In this document: positions 27,965 to 39,539 of the stretch, in pieces
How positions within the stretch are numbered: position 1 is the first letter of the stretch
How the letters are laid out: each line of letters opens with the position of its first letter
Translations under genes and position numbers: made by a program
Assembly: GCF_000373965.1 (NCBI RefSeq)
Contig: NZ_KB892857.1
Span: forward strand, 253,322-317,321
Direction of reading: 5' to 3'
Length of the DNA: 64,000 nucleotides
From: Uliginosibacterium gangwonense DSM 18521
GTDB lineage: Bacteria > Pseudomonadota > Gammaproteobacteria > Burkholderiales > Rhodocyclaceae
The notes under the pieces: generated by a model
What the model was told of the DNA's origin: nothing
The model's database searches: none
Seen by the model: the letters and a program-made list of their open reading frames with translations, nothing else

Positions 27965-29986
27965 TCAAACGTCAGTGAGTTGTTTCAGCGAGTCAGCCAC
28001 CGTCTTGGTACGGTGCGCTGTCTCTGAAGTCTGCTTGGTCAAGCCCTGAATATCATCCAGCATATGCGTAATGGCTTTCACGTCCCCAGACTGCTTTTCG
28101 ATTTCTGCGGCCACCTGACTAATGCTCGCAGCCAGTGCGGCAATATCGGCGCCGATTTCACCTGCGCTCTTGCGGGATTTTTCCGCCAGTTTGCGCACCT
28201 CATCGGCCACCACGGCAAACCCACGCCCCATGTCGCCCGCCCGTGCCGCCTCAATGGCAGCATTCAGGGCCAGCAGATTGGTCTGGTCGGAAATCTGCTG
28301 GATGACTTCCACCACGCTGCGGATGCGGTCGCTGGCATCGGCCAGGCTACGCGCATTCGTGGCGACCTGTTCGGCGTCCGAAGTCAGGGCACCTGCCGTC
28401 TCACTGGCGCCCTGCACCAGTTCTTCCTGCTTGACGACATACCCCGCCAGGCCATCCATCGACTCGTAGAGATCCTGCGCGCACACCTCAATCTGCTGCG
28501 AAGTCTGTGCCTGTGAGGTGTGCACCTGCTCAAGCGTTGTGCCCAGCGCATTCAACCCGTTGGCGACAAAGGCCATGCTTTCGTCAAAATCACTCGCATC
28601 AAGCTTGGCCGAGTAGTCCTCACGCTTGTAGTCGTCAATCACCCGCCCCATCAGGCGCGACAGGCCAGAGAGCTTGCCAATCTGGCGGCGCAGGAAGAAG
28701 GCTTTGAATTCACCGTAATGGGCGACGAAATGATCCACGTATTCGTCATGGAAGCTTTGGCCCTTGCCCACACGGAAAAAGAAGATCGCGGTGAGCGTCT
28801 GGTTGAGATTCAGCCCGAGGATTTCGCCAAAAGTGGAAAAGCCTGCCAACTGGGCGCAATCGAAAACCTTGCCGACACCCGACAATTCGCGCTCATTATA
28901 CAGGCGGCGCAGAATGCAGTCGTTGAGTATCCCGGCAACGGGGGCACTGGGTTTGCCCCGCATGAACTCGCGGAAATCCCGCTCGGTATTGGCGACCAGC
29001 CCGGTACGCTTGACCAGCAGCAATTCTTCGCCCGGTGCGATATCGCAGTAGAAGTAAATCCGGTTGGCATCCAGGTCGATCTTGCTGATGGAGCGCACAA
29101 ACAATTCTTTCCCCACCCGAATGGCAAACGAATACTCCGCCAGCTTGCCCTCAAGCTCCCCCCCCTTGCATTTGAACATTTCGCACAGGGATTCAACCAG
29201 GGTGATCAGGCGCCCGTCATGGGTGATGACGTGGCTAACATAGCGCAACTCGGTGGAGGCGTGGATGATGTGGAAACTGCTGCCGGTTGCCTCAAAATTC
29301 TGGCTCTTGAATACACCAAAACGCGTATCCCGGGCCATCTTCACAAAGGCGATCAGGGCATGGTTTTCATATTTGCGGCGCCCGTCATGCAGCCATGTGT
29401 TCTTGAAATCAAACTTGCCGCCCGCCGATCCACCTACAAACAAGCAGGGGAAACGCCCTGCCTCGTACAGTGCTTCCATGAAGAAGGACTCAGAGGCGGA
29501 AATCCCATCAAAAAGAATATAGGCAAACGTGTCATTATGATCAATGGGCATATTGACGCGAATGTTTTCAATCGAGCGGGTGAGCTGTGCAACCCGTTCA
29601 TGTGAATTGAGTTTGGCCTGCCCAACCCGAAGGTCTTCGCTCCCTAGTGGCACAGCCACCATCTCCACCGACTCGATCAGGCTGCTGTCAAAACACTGCA
29701 GCACCACCCGGTCCCAACGCTCGCCGGTCTTGCAGTAGAGATTGCCACCTTCATGGGGGCACAACTCACCGGCTGTTGAACACAGCATCATAGGCACACC
29801 TGGAAAGCGCTTGCCCAGGGTGCGCGCCACACCATCAATATCTACGTGAGGAGAAACATAACCCGTCACCAGCACAGGCTTGCACACTACGCCCGCCAGC
29901 AAGGATTCCAGTTCGCCTGAAGAACCACTCAGCGTAAAAACGCCTGCCGCAGCGGACTCACGCATTCTGCCGAACAATTTCATCAT
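27965..29986 (-). CDS. Cytoplasmic chemoreceptor with FIST sensory domains
   Basis: A 673-aa protein without membrane segments. Residues about 35-235 are FIST-N ([36 protein letters not shown]) and about 240-390 FIST-C, predicted sensors of small molecules such as amino acids. A helical signalling domain follows from about 480, with the conserved hairpin [38 protein letters not shown], which binds CheA/CheW. The signalling domain is short at the C-terminus and lacks a methylation-helix pentapeptide. The start has AGGAGGAG just upstream. The dctP-like gene follows on the same strand. Confidence 0.93.
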
Positions 29987-32498: not shown

Positions 32499-35400
32499 AT
32501 GACGGCGACGCGTGCCATCCGGGAGCGACAACTCTACCGCCCCGGCCGCCCTGCTCAGAGTATCTGGCTGCAAGTCTTCCGGCTTGATGCCACGACAGCC
32601 AGCCTGCATATCCGCTCGCGCACGGGCACAGCGGAGTGGGATACGGCAGTGCAGCGGCAATTCTCCGCACCTGATGATGCGGCCATTGATGCCCGCCTGC
32701 TGCAAGAAGAATCCCGCTGGCTGGCCGAAGGCTATCAGGCTGAGGGTCTGGCGCTGCCTGTCTGCAGGAGCACCGCACAAGCTGCGCCCGCCGCCATCGC
32801 CCGCCTGAGTGCACTGCTTGACCCCAACCAGTGGCGCCTGCTCTCCCCCAGCCGACGCGCCCGCGTGGCTTGGCGCCTGGGTGAATTGCGGGCACGTGAA
32901 GCGGCCCCCGCCCTGGCAGAACTGCTGGGCAGCGGCGACAATCTGCTCGACTACTGTCTGGTATGGGCGCTGGGGCGTTGTGGCACGCAGGCTCAGGCTG
33001 ACGCGCTCATCAAACTTGCCCAGCAGGATGCCCAGCGCAAGGGCGAACGTGGCGAAGCACTGACCCGTCTGCTGCGGCTGGCGTGGCTGGAACTGGCCTC
33101 GGAATCCTCCCGCCAGCAGTACCTCGACAGTCTGGTTGAAGACTGGCCCGCCGCCTTGCGCAAGGCCTGGCAGGAAGGTGATGACGCCAACATCACCGCC
33201 GCCGTGGCCGACCCGGCAAGTTTCCAGCGCCTGGGTTTTGGCGAATGGCTGGAGCATGTGGACCAGATCGCCCGTTTTGATCCGCTGGCCCGCAAGCGTC
33301 TGCACACCATCCTGGCTGGCGTGAAGGTGGAAGCAGGCGTCTTCCGCGCGCTGCGCCACCTCTACAAAGCGGCGGAGATGCGCGGGGATGGAGCCACCTG
33401 GGCTTTGCTGGCGCTGCGCTTTGAGCAGACCCCCGGCACGTTTGGCGACCGCAACAGCTATCGCTACATCCGCCGCAAGTGGCAGTCCGTGCGGGATGAA
33501 CTCACCCGTGCTGATTCCTCGCTGGCGTGGTCACGGGCTACGCGCGGCTACTTCCTGCGCCGGAGTTGGCGCAGCCTGCGGCGCCTGGGGATTGCCAACA
33601 GCCCGGAATTCATTGACATGGCTTTTGCCACCCTGATGCGTTTCGACGAAGCCACCACGCAGGCCCCCAGCATCCAACAACTGAGCCATTACGATTATCA
33701 GGCGCGGATGTGGCGGCAAAGCCAACGCCATCACCCGGCATTTGGCCGCTCCATGCTGTTCAACCGCCTGCTACATCGCCCTGGTGGCGCCTTGCGCAGC
33801 AACACAAACGGCACCTGCTGGTGGAGTGAAGCACCGCTGGCCGCCCGCCAGACGCGGGAGGAAGCCTTCCCGGCACTCTGGAACGAACGCCCCGACCTGC
33901 TCGTGCGCCTGCTGCTCGAAGCGCGGGCCGAGACCATTCATGCTTTCGCAGCGCTAGCCCTGCAAGATTGCCAGCCCTACCTTGCCCAGCTCGACGAGGC
34001 GGTCTGGCTGCGCCTGCTCAACAGTGCCTACGCCTGCACGGCAGAATTCGCCCTGGCGCAGATCCGCAGCCGCATCGAAGCCATCACCGACACCTCTGCT
34101 CGCACGCCCTGGCTGGTGCTGCTGGTGGGCAGCCGCCATCAGGCTGTGTGGCAGGCTGCGCTCGACTGGATCAGTGAAGACCCCGCCCGCTACGCTACCG
34201 ACGCCCGGCTGGTGGTGGCCATGCTCACTGCCCATCACAAGGCAGTACGCCAGCAGGCCCGCCTGCTGTGCCAGGCCTCACTGGCCCATACAGAGGTGGC
34301 TGAAGCAACGGTCGCCCAGTTGCTCAACTGGCTGGAAGCGCTGGATGACCTGAGCGATGCAGCCACGGCCCCTGCTGCCGACGTACGCTGGGCCATTGCC
34401 AACCCGCTACGGCCCTATGCCTCGGTGGTGAAGCATGCACGCCTGCTGGCGCTGCTGGCGGGCCCATGTGCAGCGGCCCAGGTGACGGCGGTGGAGTGGT
34501 TGCTGCTGCATCAGGCGCCGGTTTCCGACATCCCGGTCAGCGCCTACAAGACTTTGCTGGATTCGCCTGATGAAGCTGTGCAGGGCGCGGGGGTGCGTCT
34601 CTTCGGTGCCTTGCCCGACAGCATCCTGCTGACCCAAGGCGCATTGGTGGCCCGCTTTTGCACCAGCAGTGTCGCCGCCGTGCGGGAAGCCGCCATCCCT
34701 GCGCTGACGCGCCTTGCCGCAGCCGACCCGGCCTTTGCCCGGGAACTGGCCGCAGCACTGGCAGACAGCCTGTTCCGTGCGGAAGAGGCCGATGGCCTGC
34801 ACGCGCACATCACCAAGCTGCTTACACAAACCCTGGCTGAAGCCGCCCGCACGCTGGATACGGCACTGTGCCTGCGTCTGCTGATTGCGCGCAGCCGGGC
34901 TGCACAAGTGTTTGGCGCGTGGCTGCTGGCGGGCTTACCCGACGATGCCCTTGGAGCACGGGACTGGAGCCGCCTGGGTCGCGTCGACAGCCTGGAAGTT
35001 CGCCAGCGTGCGCTGCGCGTATTGGCGGACATGCTGGATCGTGACGCCAGCCTGCTGGACGAGGTGCTGGGCGTACTGGATACACGCTGGGATGAGACGC
35101 GCGAAGGGGCCACCGCCCTGCTGCGCCAAAAGATTGCCGCCAGCCAATGGACGCCTGCCCAGCTCATCGCCCTGTGCGATCACCTGAACCCTGCGGTGCA
35201 GGCCTTTGGGCGCGAGCTGATCCTGCCACGCCTGCAAGGCGAAGCGGCTCTGGATTATCTGCTCCCACTGGCCGAGCACCCGGCGCCCCGCATGCAGCAA
35301 TTTGTTGCCGAGTGGCTGGGGGCTGCGCTGCCTGCCGACCCGGCGCTGCTGGGGCAGCTGCGCCTGTATTTTGTCACCGTGCTCTCCCAGGTCAATCGTG

Positions 35401-35627
35401 GCCGGGTGGCCAAGTCCAGCACCCAGGCGCTGTTGCGCCAGCTTGCCGCGCAATCCGAAGCCTGCGCCCGCGAGGTAGTCGCAATCTTTGAACGGCTCGC
35501 GGTAACCGTGGCGATTGCCGACCGCGCCCAGTACATTGCCGGTCTGTATGAGATCCGCGCCTGTTATCCGGAGCTGGGTGGCACATTGAATATTGTGGCG
35601 CCCGAGTTGCGCAAAGGAGCCGCGTGA
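32499..35627 (+). CDS. Retron-associated HEAT-repeat protein with N-terminal WGR-like domain
   Basis: A 1042-aa protein. Residues about 15-80 (SIWLQVFRLDATTASLHI ... ARLLQEESRWLAEGYQ) have the layout of a WGR domain, a nucleic-acid-linked module, without the exact WGR triplet. The rest is helical and alanine/leucine-rich in HEAT-like pairs, for example AAPALAELLGSGDNLLDYCLVWALGRCGT and AAVREAAIPALTRLAAADPAFARELAAALA. The ATG at 32499 is chosen because GGAGA lies 6-7 bp upstream; earlier ATGs lack this. The stop codon overlaps the start of the SWIM gene (TGATG). It lacks a visible catalytic motif and probably acts as a scaffold or effector of the retron module. Confidence 0.8.
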   Translation: MTATRAIRERQLYRPGRPAQSIWLQVFRLDATTASLHIRSRTGTAEWDTAVQRQFSAPDDAAIDARLLQEESRWLAEGYQAEGLALPVCRSTAQAAPAAIARLSALLDPNQWRLLSPSRRARVAWRLGELRAREAAPALAELLGSGDNLLDYCLVWALGRCGTQAQADALIKLAQQDAQRKGERGEALTRLLRLAWLELASESSRQQYLDSLVEDWPAALRKAWQEGDDANITAAVADPASFQRLGFGEWLEHVDQIARFDPLARKRLHTILAGVKVEAGVFRALRHLYKAAEMRGDGATWALLALRFEQTPGTFGDRNSYRYIRRKWQSVRDELTRADSSLAWSRATRGYFLRRSWRSLRRLGIANSPEFIDMAFATLMRFDEATTQAPSIQQLSHYDYQARMWRQSQRHHPAFGRSMLFNRLLHRPGGALRSNTNGTCWWSEAPLAARQTREEAFPALWNERPDLLVRLLLEARAETIHAFAALALQDCQPYLAQLDEAVWLRLLNSAYACTAEFALAQIRSRIEAITDTSARTPWLVLLVGSRHQAVWQAALDWISEDPARYATDARLVVAMLTAHHKAVRQQARLLCQASLAHTEVAEATVAQLLNWLEALDDLSDAATAPAADVRWAIANPLRPYASVVKHARLLALLAGPCAAAQVTAVEWLLLHQAPVSDIPVSAYKTLLDSPDEAVQGAGVRLFGALPDSILLTQGALVARFCTSSVAAVREAAIPALTRLAAADPAFARELAAALADSLFRAEEADGLHAHITKLLTQTLAEAARTLDTALCLRLLIARSRAAQVFGAWLLAGLPDDALGARDWSRLGRVDSLEVRQRALRVLADMLDRDASLLDEVLGVLDTRWDETREGATALLRQKIAASQWTPAQLIALCDHLNPAVQAFGRELILPRLQGEAALDYLLPLAEHPAPRMQQFVAEWLGAALPADPALLGQLRLYFVTVLSQVNRGRVAKSSTQALLRQLAAQSEACAREVVAIFERLAVTVAIADRAQYIAGLYEIRACYPELGGTLNIVAPELRKGAA

Positions 35628-37321
35628 TGGAATTCCAGCACCGCTATTTCGGCCAGAGTCAGGCCACCCACACGCCTGAAGGCTCGGCACTGAGCTTCGC
35701 GCCGGATACCCTGCGGCCGCCGGTGTATTTCTCGGGCCAGTTGGCGCAGCATCTGCCGTTCCGCGAGGCCATCTCCGCGATGCATGACGTGGTGGTATCC
35801 GATCTGCGTACCCTGCCGCGTGAGCGACCGGAGTATTTCGCCTGGCTCAAGGATGCCGAGGCACAGATGCTGGCGGAATTCATGCAAGGCGCAGCACAGG
35901 CCAAGACCCGCATGGCGGCCATCGACACGGAACTCGCCGCGCTGCGCAGCCGCAAGAGCGCCTTGTTGGGGCCCTTCTACAGTGCGCGCAAGAAGTATTT
36001 CGATCATCTCTACAAGACGGATTTCTCACGCTGGGTGGTGCTGGACCCGGTGATCACCGTGCACCCGGATCGCATCTTCTTCGAGTGCTTCAGCAAGGAT
36101 GAATCCACCTATTCGGTATTGAGCTGCAGCCACAACGTTTTCAGCGCGCAAGGCGAATTCGCCTGTGGCACCACCAATATCGATTATTCCGCTGGCCTGT
36201 ACGACGAATTCCAGAAGATTCGCGGCTATCGCAAGACGCATCTGGCCATTGAGCCCACGGGTTTTACCGTGCAGAACGAAAACGACCCCAGCTTTGTCGA
36301 GCAGAAGATCGACGTGCCCGACAGCTGGGTGCGGGGCTTCCTGCAAGTCAGCTCGGCCATGACCCAACCCGCCCAGCGCGTGCATCTGCACCCGATGGAC
36401 CTGTACAACATCTGCCAGACCCTGCGCCGCCGCAAGGAACGCGGCGGGCCACGCTCGCTGCGCTTCGAGCTGCAACCGGGCGCGCCCGTGCGCATCGTGT
36501 TCGAGCCCTGGAATCTGGTGCTGGAATGCCCGCGTTCCACGCACGAGGCCAGCGAGGCGCAAACCATCCGTATCTGGGGGCGACGGCGCCTGCTGGTGCT
36601 CGAACGCATGATTCCGGTGGCAGACCGGCTGACCGTGCACCTCCTGGGCACCGGGCTGCCGAGCTTCTGGGTGGTCGACATGGGAGAACTGCAATTCACC
36701 CTGGGCCTCTCCGGCTGGACGGCCAATGACTGGTCACGCAACGGGCAGTTTGACCTGATGGGTTCCCGCGAGCATACCGATACCGACAGCCGCAACCGCG
36801 TCTATGACCAGCTCTGCCAACACTGGCAGATGGAGTCCGGCGCACTGGCCCGTGCCTGCAATCTGGAGCCTGCGTTTGCCACGGCCTGCCTGCAGCTCTT
36901 CACCCAGTCTGGCCGCGTAATGTACGACTTGGCCAATGGCGTCTATCGCCTGCGCGAGCTGACCCGCGAGCCGCTGCCGATGAACAAGCTGCGCTTTGCC
37001 AACGAGCGCGAGGAAGAGGCCGCCAAGCTGGTCGCAGATGGCTGCGTGGAAGGCTTCCGCCGTGAGGGCGACGACCAGAAACGCAGCTTGAGCGGCAAGG
37101 TAAGGGACGCTGGCAAACAGCACGATGCGAAGCTGACCGTTGATGCTAATGAGCGCATTGCCTCAGCCGAATGTAGTTGTGATTTCCACTTCCGCAACCG
37201 CCTGCGGCGCGGCCCCTGTGCCCACCTGCTGGCCTTGCGGCTGATTGATGGACAGCGCCGCCTGCAAGACCGAGCCGCCCGTGCTGCCGATCGTCGCCAA
37301 AACGATACGACCGCCCCATGA
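35627..37321 (+). CDS. Retron-associated SWIM zinc-finger protein
   Basis: A 564-aa protein with a C-terminal SWIM motif, CxCx12CxH, made of C516, C518, C531 and H533, preceded by VRDAGKQHDAKLTVDANERIASAE, the usual beta-strands of SWIM domains. SWIM fingers bind DNA or proteins. A winged-helix-like segment may lie just before it (ALARACNLEPAFATACLQLFTQSGRVMYDLANGVYRLR), giving the WH-SWIM combination. The ATG at 35627 has AAGGAG 7 bp upstream and overlaps the HEAT gene stop codon, so the pair is translationally coupled. A structured RNA gene and a reverse transcriptase follow. Confidence 0.85.
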   Translation: MEFQHRYFGQSQATHTPEGSALSFAPDTLRPPVYFSGQLAQHLPFREAISAMHDVVVSDLRTLPRERPEYFAWLKDAEAQMLAEFMQGAAQAKTRMAAIDTELAALRSRKSALLGPFYSARKKYFDHLYKTDFSRWVVLDPVITVHPDRIFFECFSKDESTYSVLSCSHNVFSAQGEFACGTTNIDYSAGLYDEFQKIRGYRKTHLAIEPTGFTVQNENDPSFVEQKIDVPDSWVRGFLQVSSAMTQPAQRVHLHPMDLYNICQTLRRRKERGGPRSLRFELQPGAPVRIVFEPWNLVLECPRSTHEASEAQTIRIWGRRRLLVLERMIPVADRLTVHLLGTGLPSFWVVDMGELQFTLGLSGWTANDWSRNGQFDLMGSREHTDTDSRNRVYDQLCQHWQMESGALARACNLEPAFATACLQLFTQSGRVMYDLANGVYRLRELTREPLPMNKLRFANEREEEAAKLVADGCVEGFRREGDDQKRSLSGKVRDAGKQHDAKLTVDANERIASAECSCDFHFRNRLRRGPCAHLLALRLIDGQRRLQDRAARAADRRQNDTTAP

Positions 37322-37332
37322 CAACCCGATTT

Positions 37333-37362
37333 TTGTTCAAGGAGACGCATCGCCTCTGATAC
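37333..37362 (+). promoter_or_regulatory. Candidate promoter of the retron non-coding RNA
   Basis: TTGTTC at 37333-37338 and TGATAC at 37357-37362 are separated by 18 bp. The predicted start near 37369-37371 falls within 1-3 bp of the first base of the a1 repeat (37372), which is where a retron RNA should begin. It lies just after the SWIM gene stop codon. Confidence 0.4.
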
Positions 37363-37371
37363 ACTGGCTAC

Positions 37372-37593
37372 GCGCAGCAGCGGGGTGGCTCTTGCAACCC
37401 GGGTGGTGGATCGCCGCCCTTGTTTTCAGCCCTCCCACGCGTCACTGGCCCGCTCTTCACTGTGCGGGACAGCACTACCTGTCGCAATGGCGGTTGGGCT
37501 TGCTACAAGCCCATTAGCGACAGGTAGTGCGTCCCGCGTCGAGTGGAGCGCTCCAGTTTGACAGGCTCTTCGATGAGAACCCTGCTGCTGCGC
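37372..37593 (+). ncRNA. Predicted retron msr-msd RNA
   Basis: The 310-bp gap between the SWIM and reverse transcriptase genes contains the parts of a retron RNA in order. a1, GCGCAGCAGCGGGGT (37372-37386), pairs with a2, ACCCTGCTGCTGCGC (37579-37593), over 15 bp with one G-U. An msr-type hairpin GGGTGGTG-GAT-CGCCGCCC (37401-37419) has 8 bp with two G-U pairs. A long msd stem pairs 37464-37490 with 37511-37537 (about 26 bp with two bulges), extended outward by CACT/AGTG and capped by GGGCTTG-CTA-CAAGCCC (37496-37512). The branching G would be just after a1 (37387 or 37388). The RT gene starts 38 bp after a2. Placement and structure fit; no expression evidence. Confidence 0.7.
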
Positions 37594-37631
37594 CCCTGCC
37601 TCTGTGTTCATCCGGCTGTGCCCAGCACACC

Positions 37632-39539
37632 ATGAGCTATCAAGAAACGCCCGAACTCCAAGCCCTGCGTGAGCGCATCCGTGCCAGCACAAAGGATGCC
37701 GTCGTCCTTGAAGAGATGCGTCGCCTGGGCTATTGGCCCAAGGACGAGGCGATCCCCGACAGCCGCGATGCGGCCAGCGAAATCGGCCAAATCATCCAGC
37801 GCGAAGGCGAACTGGTTGGCGAACTGCACAAGATGGCGCAGGATCTGCACCGCCTGAGCGACCCGCAACAAGCCCTGCAAGAGATGCGCAAGCAGCGCAT
37901 GGCCGCAGCCCGTGCCAAGCGTGAGGAAACGCGCCGCCGCCACGCCGAGGAACGCCACCAGCGCGCAGCCGCCTGGCATGCCCAGCGGCAAAAGAGCATT
38001 GCCTGGCTGGGTGAGGAAGTCTCTACTGGCCTGGCTGATGTACGCACCGATGCAGCACGCCTGCACGCCAAGAGCCTGCCGGTGATCGAATCGATTGGTG
38101 AGCTTGCCCGCCTGATGGGGGTGCCACTGGCGGAGCTGCGTTTCCTGGGGTATCAGCGCAGCGTCTCACGCATCAATCACTATCATCGCTTTGGCATCGC
38201 CAAAAAAACTGGCGGTGTACGCGTCATCTCCGCCCCTATGCCACGCATGAAGCGGGCACAATATTGGGTGCTCGACAAGCTGCTGGTGAGCCAGCCCGTG
38301 TCAGCCTCGGCCCACGGTTTTGTGCCCGGTAAATCGATCGTCGACAACGCCCGCGTCCACGCAGGCCATGATGTGGTCATCAACTTCGACCTCAAGGATT
38401 TTTTCCCCTCGATCCACTATCCACGGGTCAAGGGGCTGTTCAGTTCATTCGGATATTCCGATAGCGTAGCAACACTACTGGCCCTGCTGTGCACGGAAGC
38501 GCCGACCGAAACCGTGGAGATGGACGGCCAGCGCTACCATGTGCAAACCGGCCCGCGCTGCCTGCCACAAGGTGCGCCCACCAGCCCGGCGATCACCAAT
38601 CTGCTCTGCCGCAAGCTGGACCGCCGCCTGGAAGGCAGTGCAAAGAAGCTCGGCTTCAGCTACACCCGCTATGCCGACGACATGACCTTCTCTGCCCCGG
38701 CAGAAGCCCGCAGCAAACTGGGGCAGATGCTGTGGTGCGCCAAGCAGATCATTGCCGATGAAGGCTTCATCCTGCACCCGGACAAGCAGCGCGTGATGCA
38801 TGCCGGGCGCCGCCAGGAGGTGACCGGACTGGTCGTCAATGAACGCCCTGCCGTGCCGCGTGAAACGCTGCGCCGCTTCCGCGCCACCTTGTTCCAGGTG
38901 GAAAAGGATGGGCCGGAAGGCAAATCCTGGAATGGCAACGGCAATGTGATTGCTGCACTGGATGGCTATGCCCGCTTCATCTACATGGTGGACGCAGACA
39001 AGGGCGCACCGCTGCTGGCCCGCATTGCCCAACTCAAGGAGCGCTGGAGCGGCGCCCCGGTGCGCAAGGCACCCGGCCTACTGTCCGGCCCGGCTTTCCG
39101 GCGTGCTGCCGGGGAGGGCAAGGCACCCCGCGAAAACTGGTGGACGCCTGCCGAGCAGGCCGCACCCGTAGTCGAAAAGACCGATCAGCAACGTGCTGAA
39201 GACCGGGCCGCCGCCAAAGCCGCCATCCGCCTGCAAAAGGCTGAAGCCCAAGCCACCGCCGCACCCGCCTCCTCAGAGCAGGCAGAGACTGCGCCACCGC
39301 CTGCCAGCCTCGCCCCCGAGGAAGCCGCCAAGGCACGTGCGCTGAGCGCCTCGGACTCCATCCAGATTCTGATCCAGAGCATCGTCATGGTGCTGGCCGG
39401 GCTGGTCACCCACAACTATCTGGTCCTGTTGGGAGCCGTGGTCTGGTTCTTCCTCTCGATGAGCAAGCGGAAACGCTACAACTGGCTGATCTGGGCTGTC
39501 GTCTATATCGCCTGCCGCATCTTGGGCGGCGTGCATTAA
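37632..39539 (+). CDS. Retron-type reverse transcriptase with C-terminal membrane segments
   Basis: A 635-aa protein. Residues 50-125 are charged and probably coiled coil. The RT core (about 175-475) has the retron-specific NARVH (NAxxH, 239-243), FDLKDFF (252-258), LPQGAPTSP (311-319), the catalytic YADD (347-350) and VTGLVVN (397-403). A proline/alanine-rich linker (500-570) leads to two or three hydrophobic segments (about 577-609 and 616-633) flanked by KRKRYN, so the RT may be tethered to the inner membrane. It would reverse-transcribe the adjacent RNA into branched msDNA. No Shine-Dalgarno precedes the ATG at 37632. Ordinary retron RTs are 300-350 aa, so both ends are extended. Confidence 0.92.
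   Translation: MSYQETPELQALRERIRASTKDAVVLEEMRRLGYWPKDEAIPDSRDAASEIGQIIQREGELVGELHKMAQDLHRLSDPQQALQEMRKQRMAAARAKREETRRRHAEERHQRAAAWHAQRQKSIAWLGEEVSTGLADVRTDAARLHAKSLPVIESIGELARLMGVPLAELRFLGYQRSVSRINHYHRFGIAKKTGGVRVISAPMPRMKRAQYWVLDKLLVSQPVSASAHGFVPGKSIVDNARVHAGHDVVINFDLKDFFPSIHYPRVKGLFSSFGYSDSVATLLALLCTEAPTETVEMDGQRYHVQTGPRCLPQGAPTSPAITNLLCRKLDRRLEGSAKKLGFSYTRYADDMTFSAPAEARSKLGQMLWCAKQIIADEGFILHPDKQRVMHAGRRQEVTGLVVNERPAVPRETLRRFRATLFQVEKDGPEGKSWNGNGNVIAALDGYARFIYMVDADKGAPLLARIAQLKERWSGAPVRKAPGLLSGPAFRRAAGEGKAPRENWWTPAEQAAPVVEKTDQQRAEDRAAAKAAIRLQKAEAQATAAPASSEQAETAPPPASLAPEEAAKARALSASDSIQILIQSIVMVLAGLVTHNYLVLLGAVVWFFLSMSKRKRYNWLIWAVVYIACRILGGVH

Follow-up and report, generated by a model that had tools for sequence, protein, structure and literature searches.

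A putative type XIII retron of Uliginosibacterium gangwonense with an msr-msd RNA, a hydrophobic reverse transcriptase tail and a partner protein predicted to fold like PCNA

The 64,000-nucleotide (nt) stretch of Uliginosibacterium gangwonense DSM 18521 analysed here (contig NZ_KB892857.1; hereafter the window) contains a cassette of three genes and a covarying RNA structure whose assignment to the type XIII retrons is supported by profile matches. The putative retron consists of a reverse transcriptase (RT) with a hydrophobic tail, an msr-msd RNA, a HEAT/WGR protein and a SWIM protein, the last predicted to contain a clamp with the fold of PCNA. We tentatively suggest, as one possible mechanism, that the RT makes multicopy single-stranded DNA (msDNA) that holds the clamp protein and the HEAT/WGR protein inactive until phage replication frees them to block DNA replication. 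The protein-coding features are as follows.

32499..35627, + strand: HEAT/WGR protein gene; ATG start, 1042 amino acids (aa); PADLOC WGR_XIII 897 bits, Pfam HEAT_2
35627..37321, + strand: SWIM protein gene; ATG start, 564 aa; PADLOC SWIM_XIII 745 bits
37632..39539, + strand: retron reverse transcriptase gene; ATG start, 635 aa; PADLOC RT_XIII 617 bits, Pfam RVT_1
39340..39536 (start approximate), + strand: hydrophobic C-terminal RT tail with predicted membrane segments; from hydropathy only

The HEAT/WGR stop codon and the SWIM start codon overlap in the sequence TGATG, and the protein lengths and gene order given in a preliminary description of the region, which called these two genes translationally coupled, are confirmed. 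A gap of 310 nt (37322–37631) separates the SWIM and RT genes, and the 564-aa SWIM and 635-aa RT starts agree with the lengths of members of their protein clusters (P0121 and P0001, respectively). Type XIII models are the top PADLOC matches for all three genes, with the SWIM and WGR/HEAT genes adjoining the RT, in agreement with the type named in the preliminary description.

The RT translation contains the motifs NARVH (NAxxH), YADD and VTG that had been noted for it. After RT_XIII the next PADLOC model is RT_other (322 bits), and the closest solved RT by sequence is that of retron Ec86 (E = 2e-38), the nearest solved relatives being retron RTs. A group II intron RT, one of the alternatives raised at the outset, was rejected, with 58.6 bits to the maturase model at a cut-off of 300; no model of diversity-generating retroelements, the other alternative, is among the RT matches in the PADLOC and RT model lists. 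The host genome encodes a second RT (L002; G000:C34:188560-189561) of 460 aa that is 37% identical over residues 147–460, and its best PADLOC models are RT_other (445 bits) and RT_outgroup retron.

The RT ends in a hydrophobic stretch for which membrane insertion is predicted. A 19-residue segment with Kyte-Doolittle (KD) hydropathy of at least 1.6 is present within the last 140 aa of 107 of 120 listed RT homologues and in the rest of the RT in 0 of 120, and the tails hold one to three hydrophobic segments despite divergent sequence. Among the scored loci, beta-, alpha- and several gammaproteobacterial RTs have a tail, in differing forms; those of two Motilimonas loci (L004, L005) fall just short (1.52), and tails below threshold are found in cyanobacterial and Nannocystis RTs and in loci L027, L049, L050, L052, L075 and L079. 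The same measure flags 2 of 120 SWIM proteins anywhere in their length and 18 of 26 HEAT proteins; the HEAT count shows that the measure lacks specificity, and the insertion of the tail in a membrane is only predicted.

The 310-nt gap, described beforehand as structured, has a predicted RNA fold of -135.5 kcal/mol against a mean of -96.9 for 200 dinucleotide shuffles (z = -8.23), none of which folds as well (0/200). The complementary strand of the msd folded as DNA gives z = -7.56. Its elements are the following.

37372..37593, + strand: retron non-coding RNA (msr-msd), a1 to a2; from repeats, alignment, consensus fold and covariance model
37372..37386, + strand: a1 repeat arm; 15 nt, 93% complementary to 37579–37593
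37394, + strand: candidate for the branching guanosine; lies in a T-n-G-C shared by all 30 aligned sequences
37401..37419, + strand: msr hairpin; consensus columns 66–85
37444..37557, + strand: msd, a conserved outer stem enclosing a long hairpin; from alignment, consensus fold and DNA fold
37472–37485 and 37517–37530, + strand: hypervariable 14-nt perfect msd arms; exact pairing
37579..37593, + strand: a2 repeat arm; complementary to a1

Forty-three SWIM–RT gaps, that of the window included, were compared using a stretch cut around a hairpin with 10 or more exact pairs, and 30 were aligned (the 13 left out are mostly near-duplicates). These RNAs share the order a1, msr hairpin (GGGYGGYGGATCGCCGYCC-like), conserved outer stem, long hairpin and a2. 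The RNAalifold consensus of the 30 sequences has 43 pairs, 34 of them with at least one compensatory change, and the msr hairpin has no broken pairs, with both sides changed in four of its eight pairs. The a1/a2 stem is missing from the consensus, where its columns are poorly aligned, and is present in the single-sequence fold of the window; complementary a1/a2 repeats with 9–18 exact pairs occur in most gaps, not all. By analogy with the general retron scheme, as outlined in the accessible part of PMC13158370, G37394 is a candidate for the branching guanosine that would prime msDNA.

A covariance model built from the 30 aligned sequences, the window RNA among them, has a single match in the host genome, the locus itself (198.5 bits, E = 1e-46, with the window RNA part of the model). 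Across 47 sources it gives 13 matches, four of which were already in the model (the window and L103–L105, which are L081, L083 and L085 again) and nine of which are new (L018, L025, L043, L047, L048, L075, L078, L082 and L086). It finds no RNA in L054, L079 or L080, where the SWIM and RT genes abut or are spaced by at most 145 nt, so the RNA of these loci, if any, lies elsewhere or is different. In L079 (1–2649) and L080 the two genes abut with no RNA gap, possibly a sub-variant, and the L079 SWIM protein continues past its SWIM_XIII match (368 of 448 aa), as does that of L080.

The exact msd arms are 11–16 nt long and comprise 33 different strings across the 43 RNAs. In 72 aligned pairs whose flanks share 80% identity or more, the arms have a mean identity of 47%, the flanks 86% and the loop 74%, figures in which misalignment could somewhat depress arm identity; L034 and L039 have flanks 97% identical and a 5′ arm 0% identical as aligned. 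Between near-identical RNAs (L016, L030, L034, L039 and others) the arms can be fully replaced with pairing kept.

In the SWIM protein, structure prediction places a PCNA-fold clamp ahead of two further domains. An AlphaFold2 (AF2) model, numbered over 565 residues because it begins one codon upstream of the 564-aa start, has the following parts.

Residues 35–367: PCNA-like clamp with a helical insertion at ~69–132; AF2 model, PDB/BFVD matches
Residues ~387–443: winged helix; AF2 model
Residues ~475–540: SWIM zinc finger; AF2 model

The clamp region of this predicted structure matches PCNA-fold entries in PDB and BFVD over nearly the entire PCNA chain, and conserved basic residues sit on its ring-lining helices. 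Residues 233–246 form a conserved helix that, in the model, is read as replacing the PCNA interdomain loop. C517, C519, C532 and H534 of the zinc finger are invariant in 35 aligned SWIM sequences. A short SWIM homologue in an Anaerolineae metagenome-assembled genome (L054, 4871–6331) lacks the helical insertion of the clamp.

The AF2 model of the HEAT/WGR protein is confident (predicted local distance difference test, pLDDT, 89.8), with an N-terminal domain at about residues 8–76 followed by a long alpha-solenoid to about residue 1022. The N-terminal domain, beta-rich with one helix, is read from the model as WGR-like, and some homologues are annotated as WGR domain proteins in their sources (P0252, P0264). 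The PDB matches listed for the model are generic solenoids. Structure prediction, proposed earlier for both partners, gives by AF2 a HEAT solenoid and a predicted clamp in the SWIM protein, and the profile searches proposed with it show no PCNA match among the Pfam families listed or with one archaeal PCNA. The earlier statement that the partners have no obvious catalytic domain holds; no enzyme family is recognised in the HEAT/WGR protein by Pfam scan or among the structure matches of its model; the predicted clamp and the hydrophobic RT tail had been overlooked.

Linkage of the SWIM gene to the RT, named beforehand as a check, is conserved in relatives. A scan of GTDB genomes finds a SWIM homologue (E ≤ 1e-5) in the flank of 36 of 67 loci. 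Of the 31 others, 19 are cyanobacterial, 11 have distant RTs (28–40% identity), and in one (L061) the contig breaks off within the RT. In genome samples an RT at E ≤ 1e-60 occurs in 6 of 300 genomes of the order, 7 of 321 of the class and 7 of 200 of the family of genome G133 (the host is counted in the order and class samples and G133 in the order and family samples). Fifteen of the 17 non-host loci from these samples hold a SWIM gene, and the other two (L075 and L078) have the RNA directly upstream of the RT. By record titles and taxonomy, the loci span lineages such as Beta-, Gamma- and Alphaproteobacteria, Myxococcota, Acidobacteriota and cyanobacteria.

The cyanobacterial arrangement is different. 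In 16 genomes picked among RT carriers, SWIM and the RNA are each present in 16 of 16, and in 15 of them the SWIM gene is followed by the RNA at a distance of no more than 400 nt; the exception, G845, has its RNAs on other contigs and a stop in its SWIM frame, and in G851 the SWIM frame is split in two pieces. Ten of the 16 have no SWIM gene within 7 kb upstream of the RT, and in Calothrix parasitica NIES-267 the two are ~1.2 Mb apart, provided that contig C1 is the 8.95-Mb record. With the RNA beside SWIM and the RT distant, the RNA therefore appears to accompany the partner genes, and an RT encoded elsewhere can presumably act on it. Five of the 16 genomes have two or three RNA copies: G846 has two SWIM genes with one RNA each, and G839, G841, G845 and G849 have an extra copy away from SWIM. 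In L010, L018, L030 and similar cyanobacterial loci other frames lie between SWIM plus RNA and the RT, with gaps of up to 4.5 kb.

Given the PCNA-like fold predicted for one partner, phage defence by this locus would likely act through DNA replication. In the proposed mechanism, msDNA synthesis would be primed at G37394, and RT, msDNA, clamp and HEAT/WGR protein would assemble in one complex that the RT tail may anchor at the inner membrane. By analogy with retrons Eco8 and Ec86, the clamp and HEAT/WGR proteins would be kept in check by the msDNA hairpin, and the trigger could be a protein of phage replication or an alteration of the hairpin, as in those systems; in the text available from PMC13158370, phage single-stranded DNA-binding protein (SSB) binds the Eco8 msDNA and frees the effector, and the Ec86 hairpin is modified by a phage methyltransferase. 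Once released, the clamp might encircle DNA or occupy replisome partners at forks, with WGR and SWIM domains adding DNA contacts, and the outcome would be abortive infection. A more specific version, which we consider doubtful, takes the effector to be a bacterial PCNA-type sliding clamp: msDNA kept at the inner membrane by a tail-anchored RT would lock a ring of clamp, winged helix and SWIM together with HEAT/WGR, and phage replication would release the ring onto DNA to poison the phage replisome.

Several observations weigh against defence by a clamp. The likeness to PCNA comes from one AF2 model without sequence support, and the model is weak at about residues 1–30 and 61–140. PCNA_N is absent from the 25 listed of 38 Pfam families for 35 SWIM members, hhalign against one archaeal PCNA returns a probability of 0.4% (output 0.40), neither partner gene matches a clamp-loader family in Pfam, and none of 120 RTs or of 35 HEAT proteins has a PIP-box-like motif. 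A search of the host genome for PCNA_N gives no match at E ≤ 1. SWIM relatives are not found in phage records or viral contigs, one of nine plasmid records with an RT match is type XIII-like (52% identity), no second defence gene lies beside the cassette among the nearest neighbours scanned with Pfam or PADLOC, and the wide separation of the parts in cyanobacteria is not what a mobile defence system usually shows.

Some of these points would suit a role in genome maintenance instead of phage defence, in which an msDNA-regulated checkpoint clamp resembling 9-1-1 acts at damaged forks. The predicted PCNA fold and the WGR and SWIM domains point to DNA transactions, the locus is chromosomal here, its parts co-occur in cyanobacteria though unlinked, and phage and viral sequences lack SWIM matches. 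However, the distribution is patchy in the order, class and family samples, and retrons are described in the accessible part of PMC12548924 as bacterial anti-phage immune systems; we regard this role as unlikely. It is likewise improbable that the PCNA-like region is a scaffold for the RT–msDNA complex that never encircles DNA, with HEAT/WGR as the toxin. The helix at 233–246 departs from client-binding clamps, and SWIM is better conserved than HEAT (56% versus 35% mean column identity, in two alignments of differing composition), as a hub might be, but basic residues are conserved at the ring-lining helices and the HEAT protein and its model show no recognised enzyme family.

The RT tail could itself be the effector, damaging the inner membrane when triggered while clamp and HEAT/WGR sense phage replication. 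Its hydrophobic segments persist in most homologues despite sequence divergence, and transmembrane proteins are listed among predicted retron effectors in the portion of PMC13158370 available. Against this, the scored RTs of cyanobacteria, Nannocystis and other myxobacteria, like those of L075 and L079, have tails below threshold, and these tail-poor loci or genomes still carry SWIM where it is visible (it is not in L075), which excludes the tail as core effector of the type. A number of tails resemble a single tail anchor, and hydropathy alone flags most HEAT proteins too; we regard such a tail effector as quite unlikely. Very improbable is an RT that is not a retron RT in function and makes another DNA product, like defence-associated RTs (DRTs): it does have N- and C-terminal extensions outside the RT domain, but RT_XIII scores 617 bits against 36 for Drt2 (cut-off 390) and 24.8 for Drt3a (cut-off 200), on which a DRT was rejected, and a1/a2, msr and msd hairpins and the invariant TnGC are present.

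Scanned neighbours of the cassette include a Pfam SpecificRecomb protein and a DUF4197 protein. Three further neighbours compared with PADLOC give one weak match (PbeC, 17 bits), to a product (27965–29986) that reads like a chemoreceptor with an N-terminal sensor region; another reads like a transporter.

Retron type XIII reportedly goes back to Mestre et al. in 2020. Among the open-access literature matches listed, none reports experimental work on type XIII retrons or describes an RNA model, a clamp fold or a membrane tail of the RT for the type, and none puts forward a reading of retrons with PCNA or a sliding clamp like the one given here. Type XIII was called by PADLOC in Variovorax (PMC11953036, as far as its text was available), XIII, WGR and SWIM are absent from the accessible main text of PMC12548924, and the available parts of PMC8934634 and PMC8565338 do not mention XIII.

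The partners of type XIII are without a recognised enzyme, and a PCNA-fold clamp beside an msDNA-making RT would, if true, offer the testable idea that defence works by controlling a DNA clamp. Handles for detecting msDNA and for finding RNAs away from the RT come from the RNA model and from the in-trans arrangement seen in cyanobacteria. With retron type XIII the locus shares the RT_XIII, SWIM_XIII and WGR_XIII genes. It has the RT family and an msr-msd RNA with a1/a2 in common with Ec86 and Eco8, and differs from them in its two partners, whose only Pfam matches are HEAT and SWIM, and in the RT tail. In Escherichia coli yeh-type clusters, a WGR protein and a SWIM protein occur together with MoxR/VWA proteins; the WGR–SWIM pairing resembles that seen here, and those clusters are not known to have an RT or msr-msd RNA. 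PCNA-type clamps occur in archaea, eukaryotes and viruses, while bacteria use a beta clamp of three domains; to meet a PCNA-like chain in an immune operon of a bacterium would thus be unexpected. The SWIM protein shares a predicted fold and basic helices with PCNA, 9-1-1 and phage sliding clamps and, in addition to lacking a detected sequence match, differs from them in its helical insertion, the helix replacing the interdomain loop, the fused winged helix and SWIM finger, and its place in a retron operon.
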